Shown in pieces: positions 19,219 to 32,931 of a stretch of DNA of 64,000 bases. The DNA comes from Halichondria panicea (taxonomy: Eukaryota > Porifera > Demospongiae > Suberitida > Halichondriidae). The stretch spans positions 17,877,018-17,941,017 of the forward strand of contig NC_087377.1 of the NCBI RefSeq assembly GCF_963675165.1. The letters are read 5' to 3'. The notes under the pieces were generated by a model, which had not been told where the DNA came from, made no database searches, and saw nothing but the letters and a program-made list of their open reading frames with translations. The number at the start of each line of letters is the position of its first letter. Within the stretch, counting starts at the first letter, position 1. The position numbers and the translations under genes are program-made.

Positions 19219-22200
19219 CTACACTGTATTGGGCGGAGGGCGGTCATTGTCGGGTGTGACCTCGTTTTCTTGTGAGGGATGCTTCTTGAACGTGTCTATT
19301 GTAGCGTACTCCACCTGAAGATGTGATCATTTCATTCAATTGTCAGTATAATTATTATTATTGTCAATATGTAGACACAGCAGGAAGGGGCAAACACTTA
19401 AAATCAGTCTATTATTATAGTATAGTAGTCAAGACAACACTGAGAGCAGCTGAAACAGTCCCCATGCATGCCGTTGATTAAACGGGGGGCGTAGTTGAAC
19501 AATGGTATGGTCAAATTGGCAAATACTTTTATCGCTCAAATAATTATGAACTTTGATGACGATTAACAAAATTTGAAAGGTCCCTTTTTAAGCTTTCGGA
19601 AAATAAAAAAATCAAGGCTGCATACAAAAGCCCCTCACGCAACACACACACACACACACACACACACACACACACACACACACACACACACACACACACA
19701 CACACACACACACACACACACACACACACACACACACACACACACACACACACACACACACACACACACACACACACACACACACACACACACACACACA
19801 CACACACACACACACACACACACTTGGTACACGTACCCTCTCCTCTGTGGCTGTGGTTGGGGAGGTGGGCTTCTTTTGAGAGGGCGTGGCACTCGGAGAA
19901 CGGAAGGTCTCCAAATCAGCGTAGTGAAGTTCCTGCACAAGATACAATCAACACACAAAAAGAAAACACAAAGGCCATATTTTTTCTTTAACTGGGAGAT
20001 TTGGTCCAGAAAGGGAATCAATACAGCTCCATCAAAGAGCTACTAAATGCACATTTTAGTTGTGAATTTAGACAATCCCAACTAGAGTTATGGCCAGTCA
20101 AAGATAGCTATTAAAACAGGCTAATTTCAGAGAAAACACAAAGCTATAGCCGCCCATGCTTTCCCCTCAAAGTTGGAAGACTTAGACATGAAAGCAATCA
20201 TTGATCTAAGCACACCATTCCATAGAGCTAGCATAGAGCTACAAACGCATCCTTCACTATAGAAATCAGACTATCCCAACCAGAGTTATGGACATAATTA
20301 TATTCAAAGTTAGCCTGAAATTTAAATCCATCTTGTGCTCTGTACAGTAAATAATTATTGGACGTACTTTTGGCGCTCCTTCTAGTGGTATTCCAACGTC
20401 CAATGGAACCTCCTCGACCTTAACCCCAGCAGAGCTGTCAATGCGACTGTGTGTGTGTGGGGGCGGGAGAGTGTGTGAGTGTGTGTGGGAGTGGGCGGGA
20501 TAGGAATAATTTGATAATTATGAGAGATATAAACAGAATAATGCAGGAAATTTTCGCTGGTTAAAATGTTCGTATTGTACAGCTCAGGATAGTGACGTTG
20601 AACCTATTGCGGTAGTTTTAATTTTTGTATGATGCCCTACAATACGAAAATACGAAAATAACCCGCTATATGATATCGACAGAGAAAAATAAATGACTAC
20701 ACGATACGATTGAGCTGATAATAACATGACATGATAATTATGATATGACATGTGAACCTTGAACTTTACGTACGTTGTTTCATTTGCACTCAAATATAAA
20801 CTGGAGGAGAGAGAGAACGATGACATCATGTGACACGATAATTATGACTAGTGATGACACTATATGACATCATGCATGAGTGACAATTTGATTGGTCCGA
20901 TACCTGCTATTTACAATTAGGAACTTACTTTCTTGCTCTCTTGTTGCTAACACGATAGCTTCCTCCCTCTGCGGATAATCGAAGTACATGGATAATGGCT
21001 ACATAATGATTAGTATAGGCTGGCTGCTTTAGGTCCCCTTTATTTTAAGAGTACTAGAATCAGCTCTGTAACTAGAGTTCTGATGGTCCCCAAATTCAAC
21101 ATTGTATGATTTTATGAAAGCTTATAGCTTGTTTCAAATGGTATATCAAATTTCGTTATTTGCCAATTTGGCATACCATGGTCAAAGGCTGAAAATGACA
21201 AATTAGGGTTCTGACAAAATTTTAGATTTTAACACATCATCTGAAATTCACGGAAACCGGTTGATGACTCAATTTAAACCTTTTATGTAAATTAGGTTCT
21301 TTCTCTTTTTCATAATTTTTACTTTTATCAGGTCTACGCCACATTTTCAGAAGTGGTCAACTACGCATCCATTTTTTTCAGTTTGGCCCTAATCAGCAAG
21401 CTTAGGATAGATAATGACATATTAGGCTCTCTAACTGCATGTGGTTTGCTTTCTTGCAAGTGCACTGCAATCCACTGTACTAGTACTGTACTGGTATAGT
21501 CGATATAGTCGATATAGTCGATATAGTCGATATAGTCGATATAGTCGATATAGTCGATACAGGTGGTTTGCCTTAACATGGACGAGGAATGCTAACACAC
21601 TCAATGTTAAACTCACTGTTAATGGCAGCTATGATAAGCAGTGAAGCACACAAACAATTACCATGGCTTGTTGACTACGCTATTCAGTGCAGTCTTAATC
21701 AGTCCATCTTGTATGAATATCAATAGCTTATATAAAGTAAGGTTAACTGCTTCACACAAGCTATCCCATCAGGTCATTATTTACCAAAAAATGAGCCTAA
21801 GGCTAAACATAAAACAGTACTGAAAGGTGATGTAGTTGCTTACTACCCAAATTTGATTTAAGGTTTCTCTTGTTTTGGGTATAAAATTATATGCTTGCTA
21901 TCACTTCCTACGAAAACTTAAAATATGGGCAAACACCACTTAACATCAGCCAAATTAGCAGTCTAGGTAACACACACACTAAACCACATAATTATGTCAT
22001 TGCACATAACACCACTGTACGCTATTGTTCTGGTCTAGATACAACACTAAGATTAAGATATCTATCCCAAAGCACAATCACATGTAATGGAGGCACACAA
22101 CCTACTGTACTAGCACAATAACTAGAGATTACTATCTATCCCAAAGCTTTCACAATACAGCAAACCTTTCAGCTCACTGGAAATGTCAAAAACATAAGCC

Positions 22201-31600: not shown

Positions 31601-32931
31601 AAGTCGTGGATACCAATTCCACGTTGATGTTTGAAACCTCCATTCCACGTCCAAACTATCGAGATGGGGCCATTGTTGAACTGACTGTTACCTCTGGTTT
31701 TGTGCAAGGTGGTGATTTCATCTTCACTGTGAGGACTGAGAATCAATACGGGACAAGTTCATTCTCAGAACCTGTTAGAGTGATCGTGGCTGACTCAGAA
31801 GATGCACAACTACCAGGTATAGTAACGCTATAGATCCCCTTCATTTGGAGTTGGCTCTGTAACTAGAGCTGATGGTACAAATTCTGATTTTCTGAAAGCT
31901 TAGAAGCAGACCTTTTAAATGGTGTCAATCATTAAAACTATAGTTGTCAATTTGGCCGTACCATGGATTATTATGGCCCTGACAAAATTCTACATCATCT
32001 GAAAGGCCCCTCTCTAAGCTGTCAGAAAATTAACATTATGACCAACAGAACCAAATTTATGGCCGTTCAAAGATGCTCTATTGAAATGCTTTCGGTTTTA
32101 GTACTACCTTTAGTCTAATTTTATTGACTATAATTATATATTTCTCTTGCAGTGGCTGCTATAGCTGGTGGAATTGGAGGTGGTGTGCTGCTGCTGTTGC
32201 TAGTGGTGATCATCATACTGGTGGTGGTCTGTATTGTACGCAGCAATAAAACAGGTATGCATGTTATAGGCTTGTTGTATATAATGCATATAGGAATGCA
32301 TGGAATGCATGGAACGTACATGTTATGATGTAGTGGAGCTAATAAAGGCAAACTATACATAATTATAGCTAATTCCCTTTTTTCCTAATACCATGCAATA
32401 AATTACATCATTTCTTCTCTCTATACAGACACAGAATCTAAAATCCAACGTTGTGATTCTCTAGAGATGGTATCCAATCAGAACTACGGCAAGTTCAGTG
32501 AGGGGGTGGATACGCCCACAGCAGTACCACACAACACACACTACGATACTATTCCAGTCCGCTCTCCTTCTATCTACGATCAACTAGCTCCACCCCCCAA
32601 GGAAACGTTATCGGACAATCCATTGTATAGCAGCACAGGGGAGCTGAGATTGAGCGCTGTGTTTAACACTTACAATATGGTGCCCCCCAGAGGTAGTTCC
32701 CACCAACTGACCCCCAGTCATCAGAATATTCCACTACCCCCTCGTCCGGTGAGCGAGAGTGACCCCGCCCACTCCACCCCAAGCCCCTCCCACCCCACCT
32801 ATTCCACACCGTCAGCCCCTCTGGACATGCCCCCTCTAACGAACCACCACCTGATGGACAGCGAACACTTGTACGCTCATGCTACTAGTAACAGAGCACC
32901 ACTCTCAGAACCAACGTACTCTGAACTATAG
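28604..32931 (+). CDS. Ig/FN3 receptor with ITAM-like tail (putative activating partner)
   Basis: Nine exons, all phases consistent, 842 aa: 28604-28652 (signal peptide MKSILLSVLALSLVPYC), 28734-29096 (Ig-like, FNCD/LFCG), 29197-29496 (Ig-like without Cys pair), 29579-29878 (Ig, LMCG/WTCT), 29934-30227, 30568-30846, 31478-31816 (FN3), 32153-32254 (TM), 32429-32931 (long tail). Domain order and intron phases equal those of the divergent ITIM gene, so the two are duplicates. The tail has YDTI (714-717) and YDQL (725-728) separated by seven residues, i.e. YxxI-x7-YxxL as in an ITAM. It also has a PLPPRPV SH3-type motif and more tyrosines (PLYSS, TYNMV, HLYAH, terminal PTYSEL). An ITAM would bind a Syk-type tandem SH2 kinase; an endocytic YxxPhi role is an alternative. 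Confidence 0.85.
30446..30541. repeat. (CA)n microsatellite
   Basis: About 48 CA units, 26 bp before the acceptor of an FN3 exon of the ITAM-like receptor. Confidence 0.95.
30880..31255 (-). mobile_element. TIR element with internal 45-bp minisatellite, copy E
   Basis: About six units, several shortened (GAGCCTTGTGGTCCC, GAGCCTATGGTCCC). Left AAAAAGCCGAAATGCTAGAC, right CATTTCAAATGAGGTGAAAA. Intron of the ITAM-like receptor. Confidence 0.7.
31840..32095. repeat. Dispersed AAGCTTTC-core repeat, copy
   Basis: CTGATTTTCTGAAAGCTTAG, GTACCATGGATTATTATGGC and AACAGAACCAAATTTATGGC, then CGTTCAAAGATGCTC. Sits in the intron before the TM exon of the ITAM-like receptor. Confidence 0.65.

Follow-up and report, generated by a model that had tools for sequence, protein, structure and literature searches.

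A head-to-head pair of paralogous Ig/FN3 receptor genes in a demosponge: a candidate inhibitory ITIM receptor and its tyrosine-tailed, probably activating sister

The window analyzed here is a 64,000-nucleotide stretch of the Halichondria panicea genome (contig NC_087377.1, positions 17,877,018 to 17,941,017), and silicatein genes in this genome mark the host as a demosponge, in keeping with a first-pass annotation that had allowed for a sponge. Mitochondrial atp9, tried as another sponge marker, gave 4 matches, all on the large contigs C8 and C16, and was uninformative. Gene models were drawn by splice logic from the genomic sequence. They place two genes head to head, with 362 bp between their ATG codons, and the bounds of the locus are exact, running from the stop codon of the minus-strand gene at 19219 to the end of the plus-strand stop codon at 32931. 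The minus gene is predicted to have 12 exons encoding 800 aa, and the plus gene 9 exons encoding 842 aa, with GT-AG boundaries throughout. Both predicted products are type I receptors composed of a signal peptide, an Ig-like domain, a Cys-free Ig domain, a further Ig domain, three FN3 domains, and a TM helix. Each domain occupies its own exon, and every joint from the signal peptide through the TM helix lies in phase 1. The divergent arrangement, the domain order, and the exon structure were all as the first-pass annotation had described them. Neither TM helix contains a charged residue, and the cytoplasmic tail is spread over four exons in the minus gene and confined to one in the plus gene. 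The parts of the locus are listed below in window coordinates.

Minus gene:
28184..28241, minus strand: exon 1, signal peptide (ATG, GT donor, phase 0 to 1)
27739..28116, minus strand: exon 2, N-terminal Ig-like domain, Ig1 (phase 1-1; no Pfam match of weight)
27003..27299, minus strand: exon 3, Cys-free Ig2 (gene model, Pfam, Cys count)
26451..26795, minus strand: exon 4, Ig3 (gene model, Pfam)
25828..26127, minus strand: exon 5, FN3-1 (gene model, Pfam)
25222..25509, minus strand: exon 6, FN3-2 (gene model, Pfam)
24131..24433, minus strand: exon 7, FN3-3 (gene model, Pfam)
23859..23981, minus strand: exon 8, uncharged TM helix (gene model)
20929..20968, minus strand: exon 9, tail (hand model and top chain of the exon search)
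20368..20446, minus strand: exon 10, tail (hand model, exon search)
19837..19932, minus strand: exon 11, first ITIM, LHYADL (hand model, exon search)
19219..19314, minus strand: exon 12, second ITIM, VEYATI, and stop (hand model, exon search)
Between the genes:
28242..28603, no strand: intergenic region, 362 bp
Plus gene:
28604..28652, plus strand: exon 1, signal peptide (gene model)
28734..29096, plus strand: exon 2, N-terminal Ig-like domain, Ig1 (gene model)
29197..29496, plus strand: exon 3, Cys-free Ig2 (gene model, Pfam, Cys count)
29579..29878, plus strand: exon 4, Ig3 (gene model, Pfam)
29934..30227, plus strand: exon 5, FN3-1 (gene model, Pfam)
30568..30846, plus strand: exon 6, FN3-2 (gene model, alignment)
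31478..31816, plus strand: exon 7, FN3-3 (by alignment to minus FN3-3)
32153..32254, plus strand: exon 8, uncharged TM helix (gene model)
32429..32931, plus strand: exon 9, entire tail, with 8 Tyr including YDTI-x7-YDQL (gene model)

Read by eye, the intergenic region shows two nearly identical 36-bp copies in direct orientation, at 28424-28459 and 28500-28535, containing CATGCGCA.

Pfam recognized Ig families and fn3 above their cut-offs in both proteins, with three fn3 stretches in the minus product and two in the plus product. The third FN3 domain of the latter was assigned by its 27.3% identity to the minus FN3-3, with a score above all 300 shuffles. Cys is absent from Ig2 in both proteins. 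Since Pfam gave no recognition of the N-terminal domain, it was called Ig-like from its Cys/Trp spacing; an Ig1 profile found no PDB match at E values up to 10. An AlphaFold2 model of Ig1 built from a two-row alignment was all-beta, with a mean pLDDT of 47.3, too poor for use.

The two predicted proteins are collinear, with 32.6% identity over 639 aa (E 8e-81), bearing out the inverted duplication proposed in the first-pass annotation. Identity by domain ranged from 27 to 44%, and Ig1 was the best kept (43.6%). In a 6 x 6 comparison of the ectodomains, every row peaked on the diagonal, and each diagonal score exceeded 300 shuffles; the signal peptides did not match. When individual domains were searched against 1754 ORFs from 244 kb, the partner gene was the best non-self match for 11 of 12 queries, with weak partner matches for the FN1 and FN3 domain queries (E 0.002-0.038). 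A genome-wide search with Ig1 returned only itself and its partner, and heuristic searches of the genome, which distant kin may escape, found no further close relatives of the ectodomain. Matches of the plus TM-plus-tail at C9:6583620 (E 0.0012) and C14:5650177 (E 0.008) were not counted as kin, because neither locus gave a hit when searched by tblastn with the TM and tail of the plus gene. Comparison of the two genes as DNA showed nothing in common beyond an intronic minisatellite and five pieces at the level of chance. As judged from predicted protein sequences, they are old paralogues and mutually the closest relatives found, alike in architecture but far from near-identity. The expectation of matched ligand-binding parts is weakened by these figures, and at 32.6% overall identity, 43.6% in the best domain, a common ligand is doubtful.

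The minus product, in the gene model a type I membrane protein with a signal peptide, an ectodomain, and a single TM helix, carries LHYADL and VEYATI on two of its three tail tyrosines, with a Tyr-Tyr distance of 31. The tail thus has two sites where the ITIM criterion asks for at least one [ILVS]xYxx[ILV], and both also match the strict form [ILV]xYxx[ILV], of which shuffled tails averaged 0.054 sites (P 0.001). Shuffle P values of 0.001-0.0024 stood after five-fold correction, and the tandem ITIMs noted at first reading were thus confirmed as strict sites. They are similar to the sites of SIRP-alpha and PD-1. ITIM-type strings can arise by chance, as one did among the 20 Tyr of the minus ectodomain (none among 13 in the plus ectodomain). 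By eye, and in single-exon reading, no second tandem-ITIM tail was seen among neighboring Ig-gene tails in 244 kb. Single strings of ITIM type were common in ORFs of this region, most of them surely non-coding.

The tail exons were also sought with a motif-blind search. With repeats masked, the search returned the hand-model tail at penalties of 8 and 11 and as a tie at 14; at 17, the top chain omitted the exon of the first ITIM. For the first tail exon, an alternative at 21419-21485 scored 26.2 against 27.0 for 20929-20968. Unmasked, the search was dominated by the minisatellite and a CA repeat; the hand model was absent among the three chains listed, one of which held the second ITIM sequence and none the first. 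Masking, thresholds, and minimum exon length were chosen after the unmasked search, so the masked result is supportive and not fully blind. Exon 11 is a phase 0-0 cassette, and in-frame skipping of the first ITIM is therefore possible.

The two tails are not alike in sequence: the score of their alignment was reached in 153 of 500 shuffles. The tail of the plus gene has one site, YDTI-x7-YDQL, whose spacing fits the ITAM criterion YxxI/L x6-8 YxxI/L, with chance levels of P 0.0092 (x6-8, I/L) and 0.0386 (x6-12, I/L/V). An acidic residue three positions before the first ITAM Tyr is common, not absolute, and is absent here (HNTHYDTI). The consensus forms are TxYxx[VI] for an ITSM and [ILVS]xYxx[ILV] for an ITIM; because THYDTI fits the former and SIYDQL the latter, an ITAM is one of several readings. 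The ITAM-like tail of the first-pass annotation is thus present as a YxxI-x7-YxxL motif, but one that is statistically weak when several motif types are taken into account, open to ITSM and ITIM readings, and without the acidic residue at -3. The tail also contains non-ITAM tyrosines, proline stretches, and four YxxPhi sites (P 0.0165). The final ~104 nt of the tail are part of a locally dispersed family of duplicates, of which C1 carries 8 other clear copies. Those compared appear to be non-coding, and the ITAM segment lies outside these copies.

Proteins that could read such tails are predicted in the same genome, among them the SHP-type and Syk-type tandem-SH2 proteins that the first-pass annotation had suggested seeking. 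An SHP-type tandem-SH2 phosphatase (C3:8404573-8406287) has PTPN11 as its best PDB match (5e-140); both arginines of the phosphotyrosine pockets are intact, as is HCSAGIGRTG. A Syk (C4:4842461-4850530; best PDB match SYK, 1.4e-103) has a tandem SH2 region that aligns as a single stretch to SYK chains. The genome further encodes a Shark-type SH2-Ank-SH2-kinase (C9:5255365-5259157), first taken for Syk until its domain order was read, and PLC-gamma (C9:1006294-1008139), initially a tandem-SH2 candidate.

The minus gene is thus a candidate inhibitory ITIM receptor, and the plus gene is its tyrosine-tailed sister, probably activating. For the pair, we infer co-expression, phosphorylation, docking, opposition, and a ligand. 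An ancestral receptor gene with three Ig and three FN3 domains would have undergone inverted duplication, leaving a promoter region common to both copies, and the tails, now unrelated in sequence, would have been attached at the phase-1 joint that follows the TM exon. A Src-type kinase may phosphorylate LHYADL and VEYATI of the minus product, upon which the tandem SH2 domains of the SHP/Corkscrew-type phosphatase could dock and switch off nearby tyrosine signaling. The plus product would signal via its own tail, most likely through a Syk or Shark-type kinase on YDTI-x7-YDQL, and would be damped by the minus product when both are on one cell. We place a duplicated pair working in this way, with the minus protein damping the plus protein, at a little short of an even chance. 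The full claim, that a head-to-head pair of an SHP-recruiting inhibitory and a Syk/Shark-recruiting activating receptor, derived from one ancestral gene, operates in a demosponge, is doubtful though a serious possibility. A role in allorecognition, also raised initially, is unsupported, because heuristic searches of the genome found no expansion of either ectodomain. If the full claim is true, opposed ITIM/ITAM logic existed at the animal base or arose independently in a sponge, long before lymphocytes. Should the tails function as proposed, a sponge would already possess the balance between activating and inhibitory tyrosine motifs that governs NK cells and phagocytes as well as fusion in ascidians, together with its readers, in one compact, testable locus, and sponge biology would gain a defined candidate contact-receptor pair alongside the aggregation factors.

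It is possible, if rather unlikely, that both proteins are Ig/FN3 adhesion receptors whose tails serve as general phosphotyrosine docks, for SHP, adaptors, or endocytic YxxPhi readers, tuning contact signaling without opposition. The Ig-Ig-Ig-FN3-FN3-FN3 order is a common architecture, widespread among adhesion proteins, and some adhesion molecules, PECAM-1 and MPZL1 among them, likewise bear ITIMs in their tails. The far-diverged ectodomains point the same way, as do the additional tyrosines, proline stretches, and YxxPhi sites of the plus tail. Sponge Ig proteins have been discussed as adhesion molecules and receptor kinases in the portions of the literature consulted (PMC11999971; PMC2248247). 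Against this stand the strict ITIMs on two of three minus-tail tyrosines, rare by shuffle, although a PECAM-1-like use would still be compatible with them.

It is improbable, in our view, that the motifs are accidental or without use, with shuffled sequence making up especially the C-terminus of the plus protein. Tyr motifs do occur in other tails of the genome (VIYDTV at C1, VSYVTV at C9) and in an ectodomain, and the dispersed end of the plus tail favors such a view; however, the minus-tail P values survive correction, and the ITAM segment is not within the dispersed copies. More improbable still is that both tails are inhibitory and SHP-docking, with THYDTI as an ITSM, SIYDQL as an ITIM, and no activating member. 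The two consensus forms fit, but in the plus tail they are near or at chance (ITSM P 0.047, ITIM P 0.28), and a 7-residue gap has the spacing of an ITAM, bridged by Syk-type tandem SH2 domains and short for SHP.

The opposed pair that we favor has partial counterparts elsewhere. In vertebrate KIR, FcR/FCRL, SIRP, and Siglec pairs, as here, adjacent paralogous genes include an ITIM partner. Vertebrate paired receptors often have near-identical ectodomains, whereas those of the sponge are not closely matched (32.6% overall, 27-44% per domain), and the vertebrate pairs differ likewise from the scant DNA-level likeness of the sponge genes. Classical activating FcR and KIR are described, in the sections cited, as associating with ITAM-bearing adaptors (PMC2413239) through charged TM residues (PMC2915791). 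In contrast, neither sponge protein has a charged TM residue for an adaptor.

Ig receptors with ITIM/ITAM motifs are already reported from Hydractinia and Botryllus. The Hydractinia Alr proteins are, by the description in the parts of the sources used, similar in being Ig-superfamily receptors with such motifs in an early-branching animal (PMC12065747; PMC11999971). We liken them by that description only, the Alr complex having 41 members with V-set/I-set domains and the sponge a two-gene family. The fester co-receptors (FcoR) at the fuhc locus of Botryllus, a chordate invertebrate, are, in the account available, type I Ig receptors with ITIM, hemITAM, or YxxI/L/V tails, encoded like the sponge genes beside partner receptors (PMC12065747). 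FcoR occupy 53 loci, contain sushi domains, are partly polymorphic, and are partnered with the fester family, according to the same account (PMC12065747). The sponge genes, by comparison, encode FN3 domains and stand as one isolated pair, for which searches of the genome found no close kin.

The ectodomain of Drosophila Draper is of the EGF type. As outlined in the part of the source cited, the ITAM form, Draper-I, acts via Shark, and the ITIM form, Draper-II, recruits Corkscrew against Draper-I; the two are splice variants of one gene (PMC4503800), in contrast to two genes in the sponge. The oyster CgIgIT2, an invertebrate Ig receptor with five Ig domains, carries its own ITAM, as the sponge plus protein is a candidate to do; the passages of that report cited here describe no inhibitory twin (PMC11999971), whereas the sponge plus gene stands beside an ITIM sister.

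The assembly comprises 131.5 Mb in 39 contigs, with the window at positions 17877018-17941017 of C1 (contig NC_087377.1; C2, C3, and so on are other contigs). A divergent receptor pair having a 362-bp shared promoter region, with phase-1 joints from signal peptide to transmembrane helix (TM), had been proposed in the first-pass annotation and was borne out by both gene models. The minus gene is predicted to have 12 exons running from 28241 down to 19219, every intron being GT-AG, and an 800-aa product; its joints are in phase 1 between signal peptide and TM, followed by phases 1, 2, 0, and 0 at the four joints of the tail. 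The plus gene is predicted to have 9 exons (28604 to 32931), phase 1 at every joint, and an 842-aa product, and the two ATGs lie 362 bp apart. Repeats in this region are as follows (window coordinates).

28424-28459 and 28500-28535: two near-identical 36-bp copies in direct orientation, containing CATGCGCA, within the 362-bp shared promoter region
22190-23790: minisatellite, unit length about 45 bp by eye (ctagctacagtgcacacagtgggacc...), forming much of the intron ahead of the minus tail exons
19640-19823: long CA run

The CATGCGCA repeat resembles an NRF1-type site. The same minisatellite also occurs at 3.3-4.0, 7.5-7.9, 12.0-12.9, 24.6, and 30.9-31.2 kb of the window.

Pfam matches above cut-offs were of the Ig family and fn3 in both products, with three fn3 stretches in the minus and two in the plus product, and there was no Pfam match of weight to the N-terminal domain, Ig1. 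Two cysteines and one tryptophan of Ig1 (C32, C107, and W49) are aligned and kept, and the domain is diverged. The two ectodomains, each ordered as Ig1, a Cys-free Ig2, Ig3, and three FN3 domains (FN1-FN3), align collinearly with 32.6% identity over 639 aa (E 8e-81). When the domains were aligned pairwise in a 6 x 6 score matrix, as had been suggested beforehand, each was closest to its counterpart, the diagonal topping every row and every diagonal score exceeding 300 shuffles. Identities between counterparts were 43.6% (Ig1), 39.8% (Ig2), 29.6% (Ig3), 30.2% (FN1), 38.5% (FN2), and 27.3% (FN3); of the "same ectodomain" first described, common origin and architecture stand, but not literal sameness in the vertebrate sense. 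Among 1754 six-frame ORFs from 244 kb, counting matches >98% identical as self, the best non-self match was the partner for 11 of 12 domain queries. The exception was minus FN1, which scored its own FN2 at 27.3 bits versus 26.9 for its partner, and the FN1 and FN3 partner matches in this set were weak (E 0.002-0.038). Compared as DNA, the pair shared nothing beyond the dispersed minisatellite of the introns and five short pieces (E 0.15-0.53), and therefore this comparison gave no sign of recent homogenization between the genes. The duplication behind the pair is old.

Consensus forms of ITIM, ITAM, and ITSM were applied to both tails. With 106 aa and three Tyr, the minus tail carries the ITIMs LHYADL and VEYATI, as first read, the two tyrosines being 31 residues apart. 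In 20,000 shuffles, two or more ITIMs arose with P 0.0010 ([ILV] at -2) or 0.0024 ([ILVS]); as a yardstick, ITIM-type strings numbered one among 20 Tyr of the minus ectodomain and none among 13 of the plus. Each ITIM occupies its own 96-nt exon, and that of ITIM 1 is a phase 0-0 cassette which could be skipped in frame. The tail was also sought by an exon-chain search using only ectodomain-exon codon use and splice-site scores, the latter trained on 15 introns of both genes excluding those of the minus tail. With repeats masked, the exact tail was returned at penalties of 8 and 11, tied at 14, and lost the ITIM 1 exon at 17; masking and thresholds were set after a run on unmasked sequence, which did not recover the tail. 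At the motif level, the case for a predicted inhibitory arm is strong.

The plus tail, of 172 aa with eight Tyr, does contain the YxxI-x7-YxxL string that had been read as ITAM-like, YDTI-x7-YDQL, expected by chance with P 0.0092 (x6-8, I/L) or 0.0386 (x6-12, I/L/V). The ITAM reading is ambiguous, however, as THYDTI also fits an ITSM (P 0.047) and SIYDQL an ITIM (P 0.28). The two tails showed no similarity, 153 of 500 shuffles reaching their alignment score. Charged residues are absent from both TM helices; the plus product is thus not a KIR2DS-type activator that depends on an adaptor and, if signalling at all, must use its own tail. The predicted activating arm is plausible, if ambiguous. 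The plus coding exon ends in ~104 nt that recur, in eight further clear copies, at 17.59-17.99 Mb of C1, with two more matches at E 0.66.

Window 32830-32933: the plus gene itself
Window 39074-39174: copy
Loci L047, L048, L049, and L050: copies
C1:17594132, 17750727, and 17991848: copies

Six of these compared as DNA were 89-97% identical over 102-135 bp. By eye, the upstream flanks of several are alike among themselves, differ from the plus gene, and shift the frame, and the copies therefore look like non-coding fragments.

Genome scans for SH2, phosphatase, and kinase domains led to four loci, whose protein queries were hand-joined exon pieces.

C3:8404573-8406287: SHP-type phosphatase, SH2-SH2-PTP; best PDB match PTPN11 (SHP-2), 5e-140
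C4:4842461-4850530: Syk-type kinase, SH2-SH2-kinase; best match full-length SYK, 1.4e-103
C9:5255365-5259157: SH2-Ank-SH2-kinase, of the Shark type
C9:1001500-1009000: PLC-gamma, 2e-74

Both the SHP-type and Syk-type tandem-SH2 proteins that the first-pass annotation had proposed seeking were thus found in this genome. Both phosphotyrosine pockets (GSFLCR and GSYLVR) of the C3 protein are intact, as is HCSAGIGRTG. At C2:7249-7256 kb, SH2 and kinase matches are adjacent on the same strand three times, as expected of Src-type kinases. Predicted readers for both motif kinds are present, and we infer that they may read these two tails. Among sponges, a Syk-family kinase has been published from Amphimedon (PMC9601881). 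In Drosophila, Draper-I signals through its ITAM to Shark and Draper-II through its ITIM to Corkscrew, with Shark being dephosphorylated by the latter (PMC4503800), the same opposition as proposed for the sponge pair.

In heuristic whole-genome searches, which may miss distant kin, minus Ig1 matched itself and plus Ig1 only (2/2 candidates). With the full minus protein as query, 56 of 95 candidates were scored, yielding 16 matches: 10 exons of its own, four of the plus gene, one TM region, and one Ig2-like match ~70-80 kb distant (36% identity, E 2.3e-6). For the full plus protein there were 36 matches with E no higher than 0.1, comprising 8 own, 5 minus, 8 C-terminus copies, and 15 weaker others (best 7.7e-5). 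Reported Ig receptors with ITIM/ITAM-type tails include Botryllus FcoR and Hydractinia Alr (PMC12065747), and oyster CgIgIT2 is reported as an Ig receptor with an ITAM (PMC11999971). We found no description of a sponge ITIM/ITAM Ig receptor pair in the open-licence literature searched. The pair appears isolated and old, not an expanding polymorphic cluster; this argues against an allorecognition locus under rapid evolution and favours a conserved system of contact or phagocyte receptors. A role in allorecognition, as first entertained, is possible but unsupported.

The nearest other Ig2 relatives are in a gene some 50-53 kb upstream of the window (C1:17824128-17827033), with tandem Ig domains, of which the one read is Cys-free, followed by a GGDPHF stretch, von Willebrand D-like by eye. 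Among the matches listed, Ig domains are dense at C1:17.72-18.00 Mb. Two related stretches in the window are 85% identical as DNA over 337 bp.

33186-38385 (-): Ig/FN3/TM stretch, with sushi repeats upstream
62263-63556 (-): Ig/FN3/TM stretch; an ORF at 62263-62613 has NPAYGM and YDYVNP beyond the TM

In the dense Ig region, a tail ORF at C1:17813977-17814336 contains AAYGL and NPAYGL together with a VIYDTV site. At C1:17815566-17818235, next to an Ig receptor gene, one of three ORFs tested gave a Calx-beta match of 18.9 bits, under the curated cut-off of 27, and a leucine-rich-repeat match at C1:17718813-17719100, also under cut-off, lies near another; a mixed recognition-gene neighbourhood is possible. 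Calx-beta domains, which occur in sponge aggregation factors, are abundant, with at least 151 genome matches (150 of 645 candidates scored). A back-translated silicatein active-site pattern gave four genome matches versus none with the reversed control, three of them within C2:656-668 kb. Two of the four loci were examined and both read silicatein-like; one gene, pieced together from exons, matches silicatein alpha best in the PDB (352.7 bits; next a cathepsin L, 244). On this evidence the genome is very probably that of a siliceous demosponge. An EGF-repeat receptor tail at C9:6583620-6583916 (locus L051) has VSYVTV and IYDDV, and thus tyrosine motifs in this genome extend beyond Ig receptors.
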